Positions 5,029 through 15,611 of a DNA stretch of 64,000 nucleotides are shown one piece after another. The stretch covers positions 1-64,000 of the forward strand of contig CAJXWT010000003.1 of assembly GCA_913062595.1 (NCBI GenBank). The letters run 5' to 3'. The notes under the pieces are model-generated. The model was given only the letters and a program-made list of their open reading frames with translations. It ran no database searches and was not told the DNA's origin. The stretch's first letter is position 1; each line of letters begins with the position of its first letter. The DNA comes from an uncultured Fidelibacterota bacterium. Lineage in GTDB: Bacteria > Fidelibacterota > Marinisomatia > Marinisomatales > TCS55. The position numbers and the translations under genes are program-made.

Positions 5029-5379
5029 ATGCTTCGGAAAATAATTACTGTCATTCTTCTTGCGGTGCTGATGGTTATTACTGTTGGCCCATTTGTTCAG
5101 GTCACTGCTTGCAACATGCCTTGCTGTACAGATTTGGCAGCTACCTGCTGTGAGCCAAACCCTGAACAGATTTGCCACAGTTCTGTTGACTGTGGTAAAA
5201 TTGTATTTACTACCGTTATTTCAGTGCCAATCCAAAAAAAATATCAGCAATCTGATCTATTAGAATTTGCATTGGTATTATTTTCTGATATTGTTCAGGA
5301 TCCTGGATTTCAAGTTTTACACGAAGAGGACACTATGTCTTACCTCTTAAGCCACCTTAACCTGCCTCTATTAGCCTAG
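5029..5379 (+). CDS. small secreted cysteine-rich protein, unknown function
   Basis: I do not recognise this 116-residue protein. A strongly hydrophobic N-terminus (about residues 5-24) is a signal peptide or membrane anchor. It is followed by a compact cluster of seven cysteines at 28, 32, 33, 40, 41, 49 and 55, including two CC pairs, then a Cys-free hydrophilic tail. Such clusters bind metals or form disulfides in the periplasm. It stands 134 bases upstream of the UGA-containing gene and two genes upstream of an HMA lipoprotein. A shared role in metal or redox handling in the cell envelope is therefore likely, but this is inference. The gene begins 42 bases after the hydrolase. Confidence 0.6.
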   Translation: MLRKIITVILLAVLMVITVGPFVQVTACNMPCCTDLAATCCEPNPEQICHSSVDCGKIVFTTVISVPIQKKYQQSDLLEFALVLFSDIVQDPGFQVLHEEDTMSYLLSHLNLPLLA

Positions 5380-5513: not shown

Positions 5514-6533
5514 ATGAAGCTAAGAATTACAATATTTTTAACACTTTTATCAGCGTTGCTTTGGGGACAATGACCCATGTGAGCCAATCCCAGCCTCCCG
5601 GTCGGGACGGCCAATTCCGGTATTGGGTTAGATAAGGGTGAATTTACTCTTGGTTCTAACTTATTATATCAAAACATTGAATGGTGGCATAGTGAACTTG
5701 ATAGTATGGGTGACCATAAAGGTAACCTGCGCTCAAAACTTGCGGAAATCAATGCCACTTTTGGTATATCGGAGCAGTGGAACATGAGCGTTGATATGAT
5801 GCTTGGTAATCGTTCAATGGACTATTATCGGGTTGAGAATATCCACCATCGCGATGAACATAAATTAGGCCTGGGTGATACGCGCGTGACTTTAAGGTAT
5901 CTATTTGAAAATACAACATTTGGACCAGGACAACGGATGTTTCTAGGTTCCGGCCTAATTATTCCATCTAAAAATACATTGCAGGATGATCCCTTCTTAA
6001 TGGGTAGAAATGGGCAAAGACATACCCATTTTGATCTGGGCGAAGGGGTGTATAAAGGACTACTGGAATTTCAGTATTTTAATCGAACTCAAGGTTTTAT
6101 TTACCCTGGCGGGTTCTTGAAGGTCGTTTTCCCCTTGCAGACCAATCAATATGGGTATAAGCCGGGGTTGCAAATGAGCAGTGTGTTCATAGGTTATTTA
6201 CAAACAAAAATCCTTTTCAGAGGTGTACCGTTTGTTCAAATCATTGGGCAATACCGTTCTGTAGATACTTGGTCTGGGTTGATAGCGCCGAATTCAGAAG
6301 GTGGTGTCATAAATATTGGCGGCGGGCTTTCTTGGAGTTGGGCCGGTAACTATCTTACTTTATCAGTCCGGGGACCAGTGTATATTACCACTTCAGTCGC
6401 TGGTCAAGAACAGGACAAGGTGCAAAGTAGAACAGATGCATGGGGGTTTTCTTTCAGTATCCGTAAGTCATTTACTTTGCCTAAATTTTCACCTGAGCAA
6501 ATCGATGGGGAAGAGCACGATCATGAGCATTAA
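5514..6533 (+). CDS. putative secreted outer-membrane-type selenoprotein with two in-frame UGA codons (U-x-x-U)
   Basis: ATG 5514 opens a 339-residue frame if TGA at 5571-5573 and 5580-5582 are read as selenocysteine (residues 20 and 23). Residues 1-18 form a signal peptide ending LLSALLWG, then Q-U-P-M-U-A-N-P-S-L-P-V-G. Signal peptides elsewhere in this window also end in AQ or GQ, so cleavage would leave the U-x-x-U pair at the mature N-terminus. The rest has alternating amphipathic strands, a GLGDTRVTLRYLF segment and a GSGLIIPSKN segment like porin-type outer-membrane 'transporter' proteins, and a His/Glu-rich end (EEHDHEH). An AGGA-type site precedes the ATG. A SECIS-like hairpin follows the UGAs, and selA/selB lie downstream. 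A start at ATG 5706 would lose the signal peptide and cannot be right for an exported barrel. The alternative is a nonsense-mutated gene, but two UGAs spaced as C-x-x-C with intact sequence on both sides argue against decay. Confidence 0.8.
5583..5627 (+). promoter_or_regulatory. putative bacterial SECIS element
   Basis: Directly after the second UGA, GCC (5593-5595) plus TCCC (5596-5599) pairs with GGGA (5604-5607) plus GGC (5609-5611). This leaves loop GGUC (5600-5603) and a single bulged C at 5608. An outer CCAAT (5584-5588) can also pair with ATTGG (5622-5626). The loop starts 26 bases after the first UGA and 17 after the second. Bacterial SECIS elements lie just downstream of the UGA within the coding region and have a short loop with a G at the start and often GGU; this hairpin fits. 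SelB bound here would deliver Sec-tRNA. Both UGAs might share the one element. Confidence 0.7.
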
Positions 6534-6562: not shown

Positions 6563-6904
6563 ATGAAGAAACAACTAATTACAATCAGCCTCGTTCTCGG
6601 TTTAATGGCCGGTTGCGGCGGTGAGGGCGAAAATAAAACTGCTGAAATCGCCTTAAACACCATTCAGTGCGGTATGTGTTCAGATAAAATTGCCAGCGGT
6701 CTGGATAAGTTAGAAGGCGTTGTTAAGGTGGATGTAGATCTGGAAAAGAAAGTTGGTAAAGTGGTTTACAAAGCAGGTGTTATCGATTTAGGCGTTATCG
6801 AAAAAGCGATTGCTGCTATTGGGTATGATGCCAATGATACACCGGCAGAACCAAAAGCCTATTCCGGACTAGATATGTGCTGCAAAGTCCCCGGGAAAAA
6901 TTAA
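6563..6904 (+). CDS. lipoprotein with heavy-metal-associated (HMA/MerP-like) domain
   Basis: A 113-residue protein. The signal peptide ends in a lipobox, MAG-C, with Cys18 as the lipidation site. The rest is an HMA ferredoxin-like domain: metal-binding Cys36-Gly-Met-Cys39 on the first loop, then DKIASGLDKLEGV, a VDVDLEKKVGKVVY strand pair and a second helix ending AIGYDA. The C-terminus carries an additional Cys106-Cys107 pair. MerP, CopZ and P-type ATPase N-domains share this fold and bind Cu(I), Hg(II) or similar soft metals through C-x-x-C. It follows the putative selenoprotein by 29 bases and is followed by a terminator, so the two form the end of one transcript. Confidence 0.85.
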   Translation: MKKQLITISLVLGLMAGCGGEGENKTAEIALNTIQCGMCSDKIASGLDKLEGVVKVDVDLEKKVGKVVYKAGVIDLGVIEKAIAAIGYDANDTPAEPKAYSGLDMCCKVPGKN

Positions 6905-7043: not shown

Positions 7044-8366
7044 ATGTTCGATCAAATAACAGAACGGTTTGATACCGTGCTGCGCAACCTGCGCGGCCTC
7101 GGTAAGATTACAGATAAGAATATCCAGGAAACCGCGCGTGAAATTCGTCGCATACTCCTGGAAGCAGACGTGAATTTTCAAGTCACCCGAGATTTTGTAA
7201 AACGGGTGCAAGAACGGTCTGCCGGGACAAAAGTTCTCAAATCAGTGAAACCGGGGGAACAGTTTATCAAGATTATCCATGATGAACTGGCTACACTGCT
7301 TGGTAATGAACCCGTCCCATTGGAATTCGCTAAAAAAGGCCAGACCGTAATCTTAATGGCTGGCTTGCAGGGCTCCGGTAAGACTGCAACCTGTGTAAAA
7401 TTAGCCAACCGGTTTAAGGATCAGGGCAAATCAGCTCTACTGGTCGCAGCAGATGTCTATCGTCCAGCTGCGATCAAACAGTTACAGGTACTTGCCGATG
7501 AAATTGCTGTACCAGTGTTTGAGATGGGGCAGGATGACCCGGTGAAGATTTGCTCTGCTGCCGTTGAAGAAGCGGCCCTATCAAAGCTTGATTGTGTTAT
7601 TCTGGATACAGCTGGCCGTCTTCATGTAGACGGTGAAATGATGGTTGAGATCCAGCAAATTGCTGAAGCGGTAAAGCCTACAGAAACCTTGTTTGTGGCG
7701 GATGGCATGACCGGACAAGATGCGGTCCATTCCGCCCAGGCATTTAATGAAGCGCTGGAAATCACTGGTACGATATTGACGAAGTTGGATGGGGATGCTC
7801 GCGGTGGTGCCGCTATGTCGATCACTGCCGTCACCAAAAAGCCGGTGAAATTCATTGGTATTTCTGAAAAGACTGATGGCTTGGAAGTATTTGATCCGCA
7901 GCGCATGGCCGACCGCATCCTGGGGTTGGGTGATGTAGTTACCTTAGTAGAAAAAGCTCAAAAAGTGGTGGCTGAATCAGAAACCGCGAAAATACAGGAA
8001 AAACTTCTCGAGAATCGGTTTACGCTGGAAGATTTTAACACCCAGATTAAGCAACTGCATAAGATGGGTAACTTGAATCAGATTATGGGTATGATCCCAG
8101 GCGTACCGCGTAAGATGCTGCAGGGGATGGACCTGGATGATCGGCAATTATCATGGACGGAAGCCATGATTAATTCGATGACACTCCAGGAACGGAATAA
8201 TCCCCAGCTCATCAATGGGAGGCGCCGCAGGCGGATTGCAGCTGGCTCAGGTCGTTCTGTACAGGAAGTGAATCAATTATTAAAACAATTCACAGAAATG
8301 CAGAAAATGATGAAAAAATTTGGTAAAATGAAATCCCGCGGAATAAGGGTGGGACAGTTTATTTGA
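7044..8366 (+). CDS. ffh: signal recognition particle protein Ffh (SRP54)
   Basis: A 440-residue SRP GTPase. The N domain (about 1-90) is followed by the G domain with the P-loop GLQGSGKT (107-114), the ADVYRPAA insertion, DTAGRL, TKLDGDARGG and the GEK-like GISEKTDGLEVF segment. The C-terminal Met-rich M domain (about 300-440) includes GMIPGVPRKM and RRRRIAAGSGRSVQEVNQLLKQF, which bind 4.5S RNA and signal peptides. Length is typical. It targets membrane and secreted proteins co-translationally with FtsY. The gene heads the conserved ffh-rpsP-khpA-rimM-trmD-rplS cluster. About 140 bases without a gene precede it, containing a CCGGG/CCCGG inverted pair (6982-6986 with 7002-7006) in the probable leader. 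Confidence 0.97.
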   Translation: MFDQITERFDTVLRNLRGLGKITDKNIQETAREIRRILLEADVNFQVTRDFVKRVQERSAGTKVLKSVKPGEQFIKIIHDELATLLGNEPVPLEFAKKGQTVILMAGLQGSGKTATCVKLANRFKDQGKSALLVAADVYRPAAIKQLQVLADEIAVPVFEMGQDDPVKICSAAVEEAALSKLDCVILDTAGRLHVDGEMMVEIQQIAEAVKPTETLFVADGMTGQDAVHSAQAFNEALEITGTILTKLDGDARGGAAMSITAVTKKPVKFIGISEKTDGLEVFDPQRMADRILGLGDVVTLVEKAQKVVAESETAKIQEKLLENRFTLEDFNTQIKQLHKMGNLNQIMGMIPGVPRKMLQGMDLDDRQLSWTEAMINSMTLQERNNPQLINGRRRRRIAAGSGRSVQEVNQLLKQFTEMQKMMKKFGKMKSRGIRVGQFI

Positions 8367-8388: not shown

Positions 8389-9165
8389 TTGGCGACGAAA
8401 ATAAGACTAAAACGCATTGGGCGTCGAAATAGACCATTCTATCGCCTGGTTGTCATGGATGCGCGCAATCGCAGGGATGGAGCGGCAATTGAAGAGGTAG
8501 GCTGGTATAACCCCATTGCAAAAGATGAAATTTATTCACTCAAGGAAGATAGGATTTTGCATTGGCTGCAAGAAGGCGCGCAGCCAACGGATACGGCCCA
8601 TGATATTTTGCGTACAGCGGGAATCGCCCATAAGTGGCACCTTATGAAACAAGGCCTAGACGAAGCAGCCGTGGAAAAAGAAATGAAGAAATGGGCCCTT
8701 GAACGAGAAGATGTATTGGAGCGCCGGCGCCAGCGGGCCGAAGCAAAAGTAGCTGAGAAGAAAGCTGCTGCTGGAAAGAAGGCGGCAGAAACAGCTGCTG
8801 AAGCGGATAAACCTGCTGAGCCAGATGCTAAAGCGGAACCTGTGGATGAAGCACCAGATGCACTTGCGGAGGTAGATGCTGAGGAAAGTGCTGTTGATAG
8901 CGTTGATGAAGATCCTGTTGAAACAGAGGAAGAAGTACCCACGGAAGAAACTGATAATAGTGGTGTGGAAGATGAAGAGGCGCAAGCGGATGGGGCTGGT
9001 GATGAAGAAACTGGCGATGAAAGCGCAGCTGAAGAAGAGGAACCAAAAGAAGAAGCGCAAAAGGGTGAGAGTACTGAAGAAGCAGAACCCGAAAAGGACG
9101 AGTCAGGTAAAAAGGGTTCAAAGAAAACAGCCAAGAAAAATGGCCAAGAAACAGATGATAAGTGA
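8389..9165 (+). CDS. rpsP: 30S ribosomal protein S16 with a long acidic C-terminal extension
   Basis: The first 85 or so residues are a normal S16: KIRLKRIGRRNRPFYRLVV at the start, the RDGAAIEEVGWYNP loop, then LKEDRILHWLQEGAQPTDTA. S16 is a primary 16S rRNA binder needed for 30S assembly. The remaining 170 residues are unlike canonical S16, which ends near 80-90. They form a Lys/Arg/Ala/Glu helix (about 95-150), then a very Glu/Asp/Ala-rich stretch, and a short Lys-rich end (KKGSKKTAKKNG). Some FCB-group S16 proteins have shorter versions of such tails. The start is TTG 8389, fixed by AAGGAGAT (8375-8382) seven bases upstream. The frame is open throughout and khpA follows with its own ribosome site. 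Confidence 0.93.
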   Translation: MATKIRLKRIGRRNRPFYRLVVMDARNRRDGAAIEEVGWYNPIAKDEIYSLKEDRILHWLQEGAQPTDTAHDILRTAGIAHKWHLMKQGLDEAAVEKEMKKWALEREDVLERRRQRAEAKVAEKKAAAGKKAAETAAEADKPAEPDAKAEPVDEAPDALAEVDAEESAVDSVDEDPVETEEEVPTEETDNSGVEDEEAQADGAGDEETGDESAAEEEEPKEEAQKGESTEEAEPEKDESGKKGSKKTAKKNGQETDDK

Positions 9166-12378: not shown

Positions 12379-13749
12379 ATGAGTAAAAAGCAATTACGGC
12401 AACTGCCTTCTGTATCTGAAGTATTACTTGAGGTAAATCAATCTATTACGCTTCATAATAATTATATAAAACAGGTTATAAAAACGGAATTAAGGGGCTA
12501 TCGAAGAACTGCGAAAGCTGGTAAACTTGATATTAAACGGAGTGGGATCACTGCTGCAATTTTAGATGAGCTTGATACCTTGAACCAGTCTTCCATAAAA
12601 AATATCATCAACGGCACTGGTGTTGTGCTGCACACAGGTTTCGGCCGCGCGCCTATTTCAAAAAAAGTAATATCAACCGTAGCGAAAAAACTAGAAGGTT
12701 ATATCAATTTAGAATTTGATCTCTCAACGGGAAAGCGTGGTGACCGGCAGAATCACATAGCTAAAATGCTAAATGCGATCTGTGGGGCTGAAAGCAGTCT
12801 GATCGTGAATAACAATGCCGCTGCTGTGCTACTGGCATTGAATACATTTTCTGAAGGAAAAGATGTCATCGTTTCTCGAGGACAAGAAGTGGAGATCGGC
12901 GGTTCATTTCGCATTCCGGACGTAATTCGTAAAAGCCACTGCACTTTGGTGGAAATAGGCACCACAAATCGAACACATTTAAAAGATTACGAAAAAGCCA
13001 TCACCAAAAAAACCGGTGCCATCCTTTGGGCTCACACCAGTAATTACGTGGTAAAAGGATTCACGAAAGAAGTCTCTCTCACAGAATTAGCGGAATTGGC
13101 GAAAAAGAAACGCATACCCCTGGTTGCTGATCTCGGTTCCGGTGCCTTGGTAGATATGGAAAAATTGAATTTACCTGTGGAAAAACTCGTAGCCAATGTG
13201 GTCCATTCCAGTGCAGATGTGATCACATTTTCCGGGGATAAGCTTTTGGGCGGTCCTCAATCCGGTCTTATTGTTGGGAAGAAGAAGTTTGTAAACAAAA
13301 TCCACAAAAATCCACTCTACCGCACATACCGCTGTGATAAGTGGACAATGGCTCTCATGGAAGAAACGCTTCGTACGTATCATTCAGAAGTAAAGGTCAA
13401 CGGTGATAATCTTTCACTCAAACTCTTGACAACATCCCAAAACACCCTCTTTAAAAGGGGAGAAAAGATTTTAACGGACATTTCTATAAAGAAAATCAAA
13501 GACCTGGGGATTTCATTGGTGGAATCCAACGTAGAAGCCGGGAGTGGTTCACTGCCGGTGGAACCCATCCCCAGCGCCGCTTTGCAGTTCAAGCCCAAAA
13601 CAATGTCTGTTTCAGCATTGGCAAAGGCATTCCGTACCGGTGAACAATCGGTAGTAGGATATACAAAAGGGAATATATTTTATATCGACCTGAAGGCAGT
13701 CTTGCCGAACCAGGTATCCAGACTTATTCAAGTAATTCAGGACGTTTAA
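12379..13749 (+). CDS. selA: L-seryl-tRNA(Sec) selenium transferase
   Basis: A 456-residue PLP enzyme that converts Ser-tRNA(Sec) to Sec-tRNA(Sec) with selenophosphate. The N-terminal tRNA-binding region begins LRQLPSVSEVL. The core has INGTGVVLHTGFGRAPIS, NNNAAAVLLAL, SRGQEVEIGGSFRIPDV, ADLGSGALVD, and the PLP lysine K288 in FSGDKLLGGPQSG. Length is normal for bacterial SelA. Its stop overlaps the selB start (TAATG), so the pair is one unit. Its presence means the genome makes selenoproteins; selD and the Sec tRNA gene are not in this window. Confidence 0.97.
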   Translation: MSKKQLRQLPSVSEVLLEVNQSITLHNNYIKQVIKTELRGYRRTAKAGKLDIKRSGITAAILDELDTLNQSSIKNIINGTGVVLHTGFGRAPISKKVISTVAKKLEGYINLEFDLSTGKRGDRQNHIAKMLNAICGAESSLIVNNNAAAVLLALNTFSEGKDVIVSRGQEVEIGGSFRIPDVIRKSHCTLVEIGTTNRTHLKDYEKAITKKTGAILWAHTSNYVVKGFTKEVSLTELAELAKKKRIPLVADLGSGALVDMEKLNLPVEKLVANVVHSSADVITFSGDKLLGGPQSGLIVGKKKFVNKIHKNPLYRTYRCDKWTMALMEETLRTYHSEVKVNGDNLSLKLLTTSQNTLFKRGEKILTDISIKKIKDLGISLVESNVEAGSGSLPVEPIPSAALQFKPKTMSVSALAKAFRTGEQSVVGYTKGNIFYIDLKAVLPNQVSRLIQVIQDV

Positions 13750-15611
13750 TGACACAAGTTGTCATCGGCACAGCCGGGCATATTGACCACGGGAAGACGT
13801 CGTTGGTGAAAGCCCTCACCGGCACGGATACCGACCGGCTGGCGGAAGAAAAAGCCCGGGGCATGACCATTGACCTGGGTTTTGCTTTTCTGAACGATTC
13901 CGTTACCATTATTGACGTTCCCGGTCACGAGAAATTCATCCGCAATATGGTGGCGGGAGTTTCCACAATTAATATTGCCCTTTTGGTGGTGGCGGCCGAT
14001 GACGGCATCATGCCCCAGACGAGAGAACATTTACACATTCTGAAACTGCTGAAAATTCCCCATTGCGTGGTGGCACTTACCAAAACCGACCTGGCGGAAG
14101 ATGCAGAATGGCTGGACCTGGTTGAACTGGAAATACGGGAATTAACAGACGGAATTTTTGAAAGCGTGGATGTGGTCCGGACTTCCGTGCAAACAAATGA
14201 TGGAATTGAAGAATTAAAGCACTTATTGGAAACGAGAGCATCCGCTGTTCAGCAATCAGAGGATGAGAGCTTTTTCCGCCTCCAGGCGGACCGTGTTTTT
14301 TCCATGACCGGTTTTGGAACGGTGGTGACGGGAACGGTCATTTCCGGGGGATTGAAAAAAGGTGATTCCGTGGATGTAGTGCCGGAAAATATTTCAGCAA
14401 AAGTCCGGGGAATACAGTCTCACGGTGCGGATGTGGAATCTGTCCAAAGAGGCGATCGTGCGGCGGTGAATCTTTCCGGTGTGGAAGCGGAAAAGGTCTT
14501 CCGTGGTTCAGAACTGGCGGCTCCCGGGAGATTGAAAGCCGTATCGAAATTCACGGCGCATATACAACTCACGGCGGACATGAAAAAAGAAATGAAGCAC
14601 CGCCAGCGAGTGCGGGTGCACTTGGGCACGGCGGAAGTCATGGCAAGAGTCTACTTAACGTCAAACAAGAAAATGAGTGCCGGCAGTTCGGGGAATGTCA
14701 TTATTGAACTGGAGCGTCCGGCTGTTATGGCGAGTGAAGACCGCTTTGTCATGCGCACGTATTCCCCCATGACCACCATGGGCGGCGGGATGGTATTGAC
14801 CACATTTATCCCTAAAGGTGTGAAGATCAAAGAATGGGTTTCAGCACTGGATATTGACCCGGTAAGTCGCTTTGCTCAATTGGTAATGACATTCAAATTA
14901 AATCCTAAGACGATCCATAGGTGGGGATCATTCCTACAGATGATGGATTACTACGTCAGGGAATTGGTAAAAAAAACGGATTTGAAAACATCCAGGCACA
15001 GTTTTATTTATGCAGACGAAAATTTGAATACATGCTCTGAATTGATAGTAAAAAGTTTAGAACAGTACCATGAGAGAAATCCACTGCGCAAAGCCATGTC
15101 TGCTGATGTGCTGCAACAGGAAACGCGATTGAGTGAAAAATGGCTGTCTGAATTGCTGGACATCATGGAAAAAGATGCATCCATTCGTTCCGCCGGAACG
15201 GGAGTGGCATTGGCTAGCCATAAGGTGGAACTGGAAGGTGGAACGGCAGAGTTATCTGGAAAAATAGAAACTGAATTGAGGGGTAAAGAATTCACTCCCA
15301 TGACCACAAAAGAATTATCTGGAAAGTTGAATAAGGCGGAAAATGACGTGCTGGAAATTCTCCATGTATTAAAAAACGCCGGGAATGTGCTGGAAATTGA
15401 AAACGGTGTCTGGATGCATGGCGAAAACATGGCTAAACTCCGCCGGTCATTAAAGATCCATTTTAATTCACAAAACGAAATGAATGTAGCAGACTTCAAG
15501 AACATCAGCGGTTTAACACGAAAATTCGCCATTCCAGTGCTGGAATTTTGCGATAGACAGGGTTGGACCAGCCGTGAAGGCAATCTACGGCTGAAGGGGA
15601 CGGAATTGTGA
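13749..15611 (+). CDS. selB: selenocysteine-specific elongation factor SelB
   Basis: A 620-residue translational GTPase. G1 is GHIDHGKT (residues 10-17), followed by RGMTIDLGFAFL, DVPGHEKFIRNMVAG and TKTDL. EF-Tu-like domains II and III follow, then a C-terminal region (about 390-620) expected to hold winged helices that bind the SECIS hairpin in mRNA. It brings Sec-tRNA to recoded UGA codons. Coupled to selA by TAATG and to mutS by a GTGA overlap. The first 1.1 kb is visibly G+C-richer than selA or the C-terminal third, which may reflect mosaic ancestry or only conservation of the GTPase part. Confidence 0.96.
   Translation: MTQVVIGTAGHIDHGKTSLVKALTGTDTDRLAEEKARGMTIDLGFAFLNDSVTIIDVPGHEKFIRNMVAGVSTINIALLVVAADDGIMPQTREHLHILKLLKIPHCVVALTKTDLAEDAEWLDLVELEIRELTDGIFESVDVVRTSVQTNDGIEELKHLLETRASAVQQSEDESFFRLQADRVFSMTGFGTVVTGTVISGGLKKGDSVDVVPENISAKVRGIQSHGADVESVQRGDRAAVNLSGVEAEKVFRGSELAAPGRLKAVSKFTAHIQLTADMKKEMKHRQRVRVHLGTAEVMARVYLTSNKKMSAGSSGNVIIELERPAVMASEDRFVMRTYSPMTTMGGGMVLTTFIPKGVKIKEWVSALDIDPVSRFAQLVMTFKLNPKTIHRWGSFLQMMDYYVRELVKKTDLKTSRHSFIYADENLNTCSELIVKSLEQYHERNPLRKAMSADVLQQETRLSEKWLSELLDIMEKDASIRSAGTGVALASHKVELEGGTAELSGKIETELRGKEFTPMTTKELSGKLNKAENDVLEILHVLKNAGNVLEIENGVWMHGENMAKLRRSLKIHFNSQNEMNVADFKNISGLTRKFAIPVLEFCDRQGWTSREGNLRLKGTEL

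Follow-up and report, generated by a model that had tools for sequence, protein, structure and literature searches.

The window, a 64,000-nucleotide stretch of contig from an uncultured Fidelibacterota bacterium, carries at 5514-6533 on the forward strand a gene with two in-frame TGA codons, whose predicted product we name the U-x-x-U barrel. The genes and features of the locus that bear on this study are as follows.

5029..5379, forward strand: Cys-rich small secreted protein CNMPCCTDLAATCCEP, encoded ahead of the barrel gene; membership in the barrel unit is uncertain
5514..6533, forward strand: U-x-x-U barrel, a putative double-Sec outer-membrane barrel gene; 339 residues including two Sec
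5514..5567, forward strand: signal peptide MKLRITIFLTLLSALLWG, read from the sequence; the same hydrophobic leader occurs in relatives
5571..5573, forward strand: UGA codon 1, predicted Sec20; of 71 motif matches, 70 have TGA here and one has TGT
5580..5582, forward strand: UGA codon 2, predicted Sec23; of 71 motif matches, 70 have TGA here and one has TGT
5593..5611, forward strand: SECIS-like hairpin, apical loop GGUC at 5600-5603, supported by comparison
5640..6476, forward strand: predicted 12-stranded beta-barrel, residues 43-321 (AlphaFold2; topology inferred)
6563..6904, forward strand: HMA-domain (MerP/CopZ-like) lipoprotein, 30 bp downstream of the barrel gene
12379..13749, forward strand: selA (TIGR00474, 512 bits)
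13749..15611, forward strand: selB (TIGR00475, 370 bits)

The reading frame starts at ATG 5514, and after the second TGA it runs for a further 316 codons to a TAA at 6531-6533; both TGAs fall within the segment Q-U-P-M-U-A-N-P-S-L-P-V-G. The signal peptide, the start codon, the TGAs at residues 20 and 23 and the long frame behind them were all as the initial annotation had described. Cleavage of the signal peptide is inferred at Q19 or within one residue of it. The idea of a lipoprotein lipidated on Sec was rejected, as the small residue (A, G or S) expected directly before the lipidated position is missing and Q19 is invariant there (53 of 53 sequences). Ordinary (table 11) ORF calling starts the window gene at ATG 5706 and gives a product of 275 aa, so annotation would drop both the signal peptide and the U-x-x-U motif. 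The family as a whole is missed by gene callers because both UGAs lie within the first 23 codons. At confident genes elsewhere in the window, among them ffh (8364-8366) and selB (15609-15611), TGA serves as an ordinary stop, in agreement with the earlier view that genome-wide recoding does not occur here. At 8389-9165 lies a 258-aa ORF resembling ribosomal protein S16, whose C-terminal extension is very long, acidic and rich in Glu.

The presence of selA and selB close to the barrel gene, noted at the outset, was confirmed by the scores listed above against two equivalog models. The window assembly also contains a tRNA-Sec (66.4 bits, over the cut-off) and, on another contig, a selD with one in-frame TGA at the active-site GSG-U. 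The SelD gene of this genome is thus itself a selenoprotein gene. With selA, selB, tRNA-Sec and a UGA-containing selD in one assembly, the cell very probably makes Sec. Co-occurrence of the family with SelB was uninformative at the threshold used, at which other translation GTPases match too.

In a set made up of the window genome plus the 100 genomes closest to it, 39 have the gene, and a profile search across 245 genomes of Candidatus Neomarinimicrobiota detected relatives in 83 of them, representing 47 of 84 genera. Nearly every profile match that covered the N-terminus had exactly two TGAs. This pattern recurs in about 75 genomes from dozens of genera, at protein identities down to about 26%, and as judged by sequence comparison the recurrence of both codons is far beyond chance. 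The family motif, [GSPA]Q-U-x-[LM]-U-x-N-[PLIV]-[ST]-L-P-[VG]-G, was then scanned against one genome per species (84,980 species) with TGA, TGC or TGT permitted at both sites. The scan returned 70 stretches with 71 matches: 69 were U/U, one was C/U (locus L136) and one was U/C (L161), while no C/C version was present among the 71 and no unrelated match arose from the 84,980 species. Nearly all matches, single-cell genomes included, were titled Neomarinimicrobiota, Marinimicrobia or plain bacterium. Three had deviant taxon labels, namely L111 (Methylococcales), L137 (Bacteroidetes) and L148 (Rhodobiaceae). Spread into other phyla was rejected for L111 and L137, which share 87 to 94% DNA identity over 1 to 7 kb with Neomarinimicrobiota loci and whose contigs look misbinned or mislabelled; for L148, no match was listed. 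A plasmid search found none, and a search for related loci with a Cys-only back-translation found nothing, because the family carries UGA and not Cys codons.

Independent substitution of Cys at each position is classical evidence for Sec. In this family Cys replaces Sec at site 1 in one genome and at site 2 in another, and positions 20 and 23 of the homologues are UGA or Cys throughout the motif matches. The initial annotation had held that homologues with neither Cys nor UGA at these positions would refute a selenoprotein; none appeared among the 71 matches or among neighboring paralogues. These paralogues form a second barrel family, divergent from the first, in which a PPPP stretch comes after Q-C-x-x-U or Q-C-x-x-C; they are found directly downstream of the U-x-x-U barrel gene in three genomes (C-x-x-U in L081 and L082, C-x-x-C in L083) and alone in a fourth (L189, C-x-x-U). 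The C-x-x-U paralogues L081 and L082, in which the UGA is kept, retain the GGUC hairpin; as read from the DNA, the C-x-x-C paralogue has lost the loop sequence.

In the window gene, the codons for S/T-L-P-V-G right after UGA 2 fold into a stem of 6 bp capped by a 4-base loop that lies at +18 from UGA 2 and +27 from UGA 1; for comparison, the apical loop of Escherichia coli fdhF is likewise GGUC, at +19. Among 65 sequences the loop was GGUC in 46, AGUU in 15 and AGGU in 4, and changes in stem and loop were coupled, CCG occurring with GTC and CCA with GTT or GGT. When codons were permuted among sequences sharing the same amino acid in each column, 372 of 390 stem pair cells were formed in the real alignment against 300 ± 5 (maximum 317) in the permuted ones, and none of 2,000 permutations reached the observed value. 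Thinning the set to below 80% identity gave the same result (202 of 210 pair cells against 161 ± 4). Folded as a single sequence, the hairpin of the window gene shows no unusual stability (z = −0.88), and the support for a SECIS element thus rests on covariation and comparison; Rfam had no match. Only one consensus hairpin was found for both UGAs.

The family meets the expectations for a SelB-dependent selenoprotein: a conserved in-frame UGA, Cys replacements, a covarying downstream hairpin, and SelA, SelB, SelD and tRNA-Sec. We regard it as near certain, on this comparative evidence, that the window protein carries Sec at both UGAs, as first proposed, although Sec incorporation is inferred and there is no direct proof of selenium.

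The proposed barrel fold and outer-membrane location also gained support, at the level of prediction. An AlphaFold2 model built from an alignment of 40 family sequences was a 12-stranded barrel (mean pLDDT 84, pTM 0.81), in which residues 13-34, the segment with U-x-x-U, were of low confidence (pLDDT < 50). The top fold neighbors in the PDB were FapF (E = 9.5e-11) and the COG4313 channel 4rl8 (TM 0.62/0.77, 3.6 Å); a viral fold search returned generic barrels only. Pfam gave no match for the window protein, PF13557 included, and PF13557 touches one of 40 family members (E = 7e-5). Residues H68, H111, H112, E115, H170 and H172 are conserved in 96 to 100% of 53 sequences. If both termini lie in the periplasm, a barrel of 12 strands would expose loops 60-67, 105-114 and 151-180 outside the cell; under this inferred topology the six residues would cluster at these predicted extracellular ends. 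The mature protein lacks any other Cys in 48 of 53 sequences, which makes a metal-binding or diselenide pair likelier than intraprotein thiol exchange. In 4rl8 the first ~14 mature residues enter the lumen from the periplasmic side (PMC4493636), and by analogy we infer that the U-x-x-U segment may occupy the periplasmic end of the barrel lumen.

The HMA-domain lipoprotein downstream of the barrel gene has a 57% identical relative right after the barrel homologue of a near relative (L090), and the upstream Cys-rich protein has a weak relative near RND-type metal efflux genes in L105. Across 38 loci surveyed we counted ArsR-type genes in 14, MerT-type in 11, CopZ-like 2Fe-2S in 11 and HMA-domain in about 16, together with mercuric-reductase-type flavoproteins in 4, of which the one tested was MerA over the cut-off. 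In about a dozen genomes the barrel gene stands beside MerT, CopZ, ArsR or MerA genes; MerT is on its contig in 12 genomes and within ~2 kb in 10. The family is present in 16 of 20 MerT-bearing genomes against 83 of 245 overall (Fisher P = 1.4e-5, uncorrected for phylogeny). Neither MerT nor a MerA over the cut-off is present in the window genome, where the matches for MerA were sub-threshold flavoproteins only, and we therefore do not claim mercury reduction there. Since most pelagic relatives also have no mer genes near the barrel gene, mercury is not the sole substrate; HMA-type soft-metal handling is therefore what the loci have in common, mercury being a special case.

Other proteins accompany the barrel gene at some loci. 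A conserved secreted protein with the pattern GxWLIxxSYIxxGCxGxDCIPxL, which looks like DUF3179, another listed selenoprotein family, is encoded near barrel genes in L081 (8442-9512), L082, L083 and L094. A small gene set is conserved in the operon with CopZ and the barrel in L069, L074, L076 and L077; it encodes an integral-membrane protein as well as a ~165-aa protein that is secreted, and had no NCBIfam match.

We consider it probable that the gene represents a new double-Sec family of Candidatus Neomarinimicrobiota (Marinisomatota/SAR406) that acts in the outer membrane as a soft-metal channel or receptor, with the U-x-x-U pair capturing the ion; the metal role itself is inferred. In the proposed mechanism, SelB and tRNA-Sec would decode both UGAs as Sec through the one hairpin just downstream, a step well supported by comparison. 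Once the signal peptide is removed, the 12-stranded outer-membrane barrel would have (Q)-U-x-x-U-x-N-P-S-L-P-V-G as its mature N-terminus, which is likewise supported; if COG4313 channels are a guide, that segment may fold back into the lumen. The remaining steps are inferences that the sequence does not establish, as are the lumen position and the identity of the metal. The outer-face histidines may attract a soft metal ion or organometal, such as Hg(II), Cu or possibly methylmercury; the ion or a neutral complex would cross the barrel and be bound by the U-x-x-U pair, and would then be handed to the periplasmic HMA/MerP-like protein and, in some genomes, onward to MerT, CopZ and MerA. An inward direction is assumed by analogy with mer uptake. 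Selenolates hold soft metals tighter than Cys thiolates, which would account for Sec in place of Cys. The most detailed version would make the protein the first Sec-lined outer-membrane metal channel known, its U-x-x-U plug relaying Hg(II), Cu or organomercury from the histidine cluster to HMA/Mer proteins, with one SECIS element decoding two UGAs nine bases apart; this is possible, and we put it forward only tentatively.

The resemblance of U-x-x-U to C-x-x-C redox motifs allows a different function for the same double-Sec barrel, that of a low-potential redox switch (selenol/diselenide) that gates the channel, repairs it or serves to reduce a substrate, with metals incidental. A redox function is presumed for most known selenoproteins, and most pelagic relatives lack adjacent metal genes; nevertheless, the barrel has no thioredoxin-like fold and usually no partner Cys in the mature protein, and the conserved histidine set and repeated MerT, CopZ, HMA and ArsR neighbors point to metals, so that we hold a redox role to be unlikely. 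It is less plausible again that the Sec barrel imports some other soft or organic ligand, such as selenium compounds, thiol-metal complexes or hydrophobic molecules. The fold match to a COG4313 channel, a group thought to carry hydrophobic molecules (PMC4493636), speaks for this idea, but the informative loci show metal genes and not lipid or aromatic catabolism. The single consensus hairpin, closer to UGA 2 than to UGA 1, could mean that only UGA 2 is efficiently read as Sec, with UGA 1 mostly a stop or a site of misincorporation and full-length protein rare. This is very improbable, as UGA 1 is conserved as strictly as UGA 2 and L161 retains UGA 1 while Cys occupies site 2. Finally, a pseudogene, sequencing error or genome-wide recoding without a gene product, suggested by two stops close to the ORF start, is already refuted by comparative data, given the same two stops in ~75 independent assemblies (single-cell genomes included), a protein conserved downstream of them, TGA acting as a stop elsewhere and no internal TGA in SelB genes among the matches listed.

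A soft-metal channel with a Sec pair would add a widespread double-Sec family to an abundant, mostly uncultured marine phylum, place selenium at the outer cell surface, where capturing soft metals is chemically natural, and tie selenium use to marine mercury and copper handling. It would also offer a clean natural case of one SECIS hairpin serving two UGAs. Overall, the U-x-x-U barrel looks like an unrecognised selenium-based device with which the cell surface catches metals that are toxic or scarce. The SECIS hairpin, phylum-wide distribution, conserved histidines and mer-type operons were not part of the initial annotation.

No NCBIfam model (June 2026) matches the barrel family, which is also absent from a 2026 inventory of 119 prokaryotic selenoprotein families (PMC13188914) and, as far as the main text of the deep-Sep study goes, is not mentioned there (PMC12013277). 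The family is thus new relative to NCBIfam and the 2026 inventory, subscription papers and preprints being outside the search. A 2016 survey listed an unexplained "ULPU-containing selenoprotein" in 26 organisms and three SAR406 genomes as orphan-SelD only (PMC5029168). The residue order U-L-P-U does not occur in our family, and together with the orphan-SelD listing this makes identity of the two unlikely; the ULPU sequence was not compared.

Among known systems, the COG4313/PF13557 channels (4RL8, Pput2725) likewise have a 12-stranded barrel with a segment ahead of strand 1, but identity is only ~10% and no Sec or U-x-x-U is reported for the 4RL8 channel (PMC4493636). In deep and some near relatives the barrel gene accompanies MerT/MerTP, MerR or ArsR, CopZ and MerA as in mer operons, for which we found no description of a Sec outer-membrane component; in the window genome we found no mer genes. 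According to the initial annotation, no outer-membrane barrel selenoprotein with a U-x-x-U pair is known. Barrel selenoproteins are in fact already listed, namely a TonB-dependent receptor of the FCYXU motif type (NF049945) and the MtrB/PioB-like GSU2204 family (NF041027), but each has one Sec and neither matches the window barrel in the NCBIfam scan, so they are different families; none of the barrel selenoproteins is listed with a U-x-x-U motif. U-x-x-U or Sec is found in mercury- and copper-type proteins, the UxxU metal-binding (seleno)protein NF041115 and the MerT/CopZ selenoprotein fusion NF045683. These are of HMA or MerT/CopZ type, not barrels, and neither matches the window barrel, but by analogy they support the metal chemistry proposed for its U-x-x-U pair.
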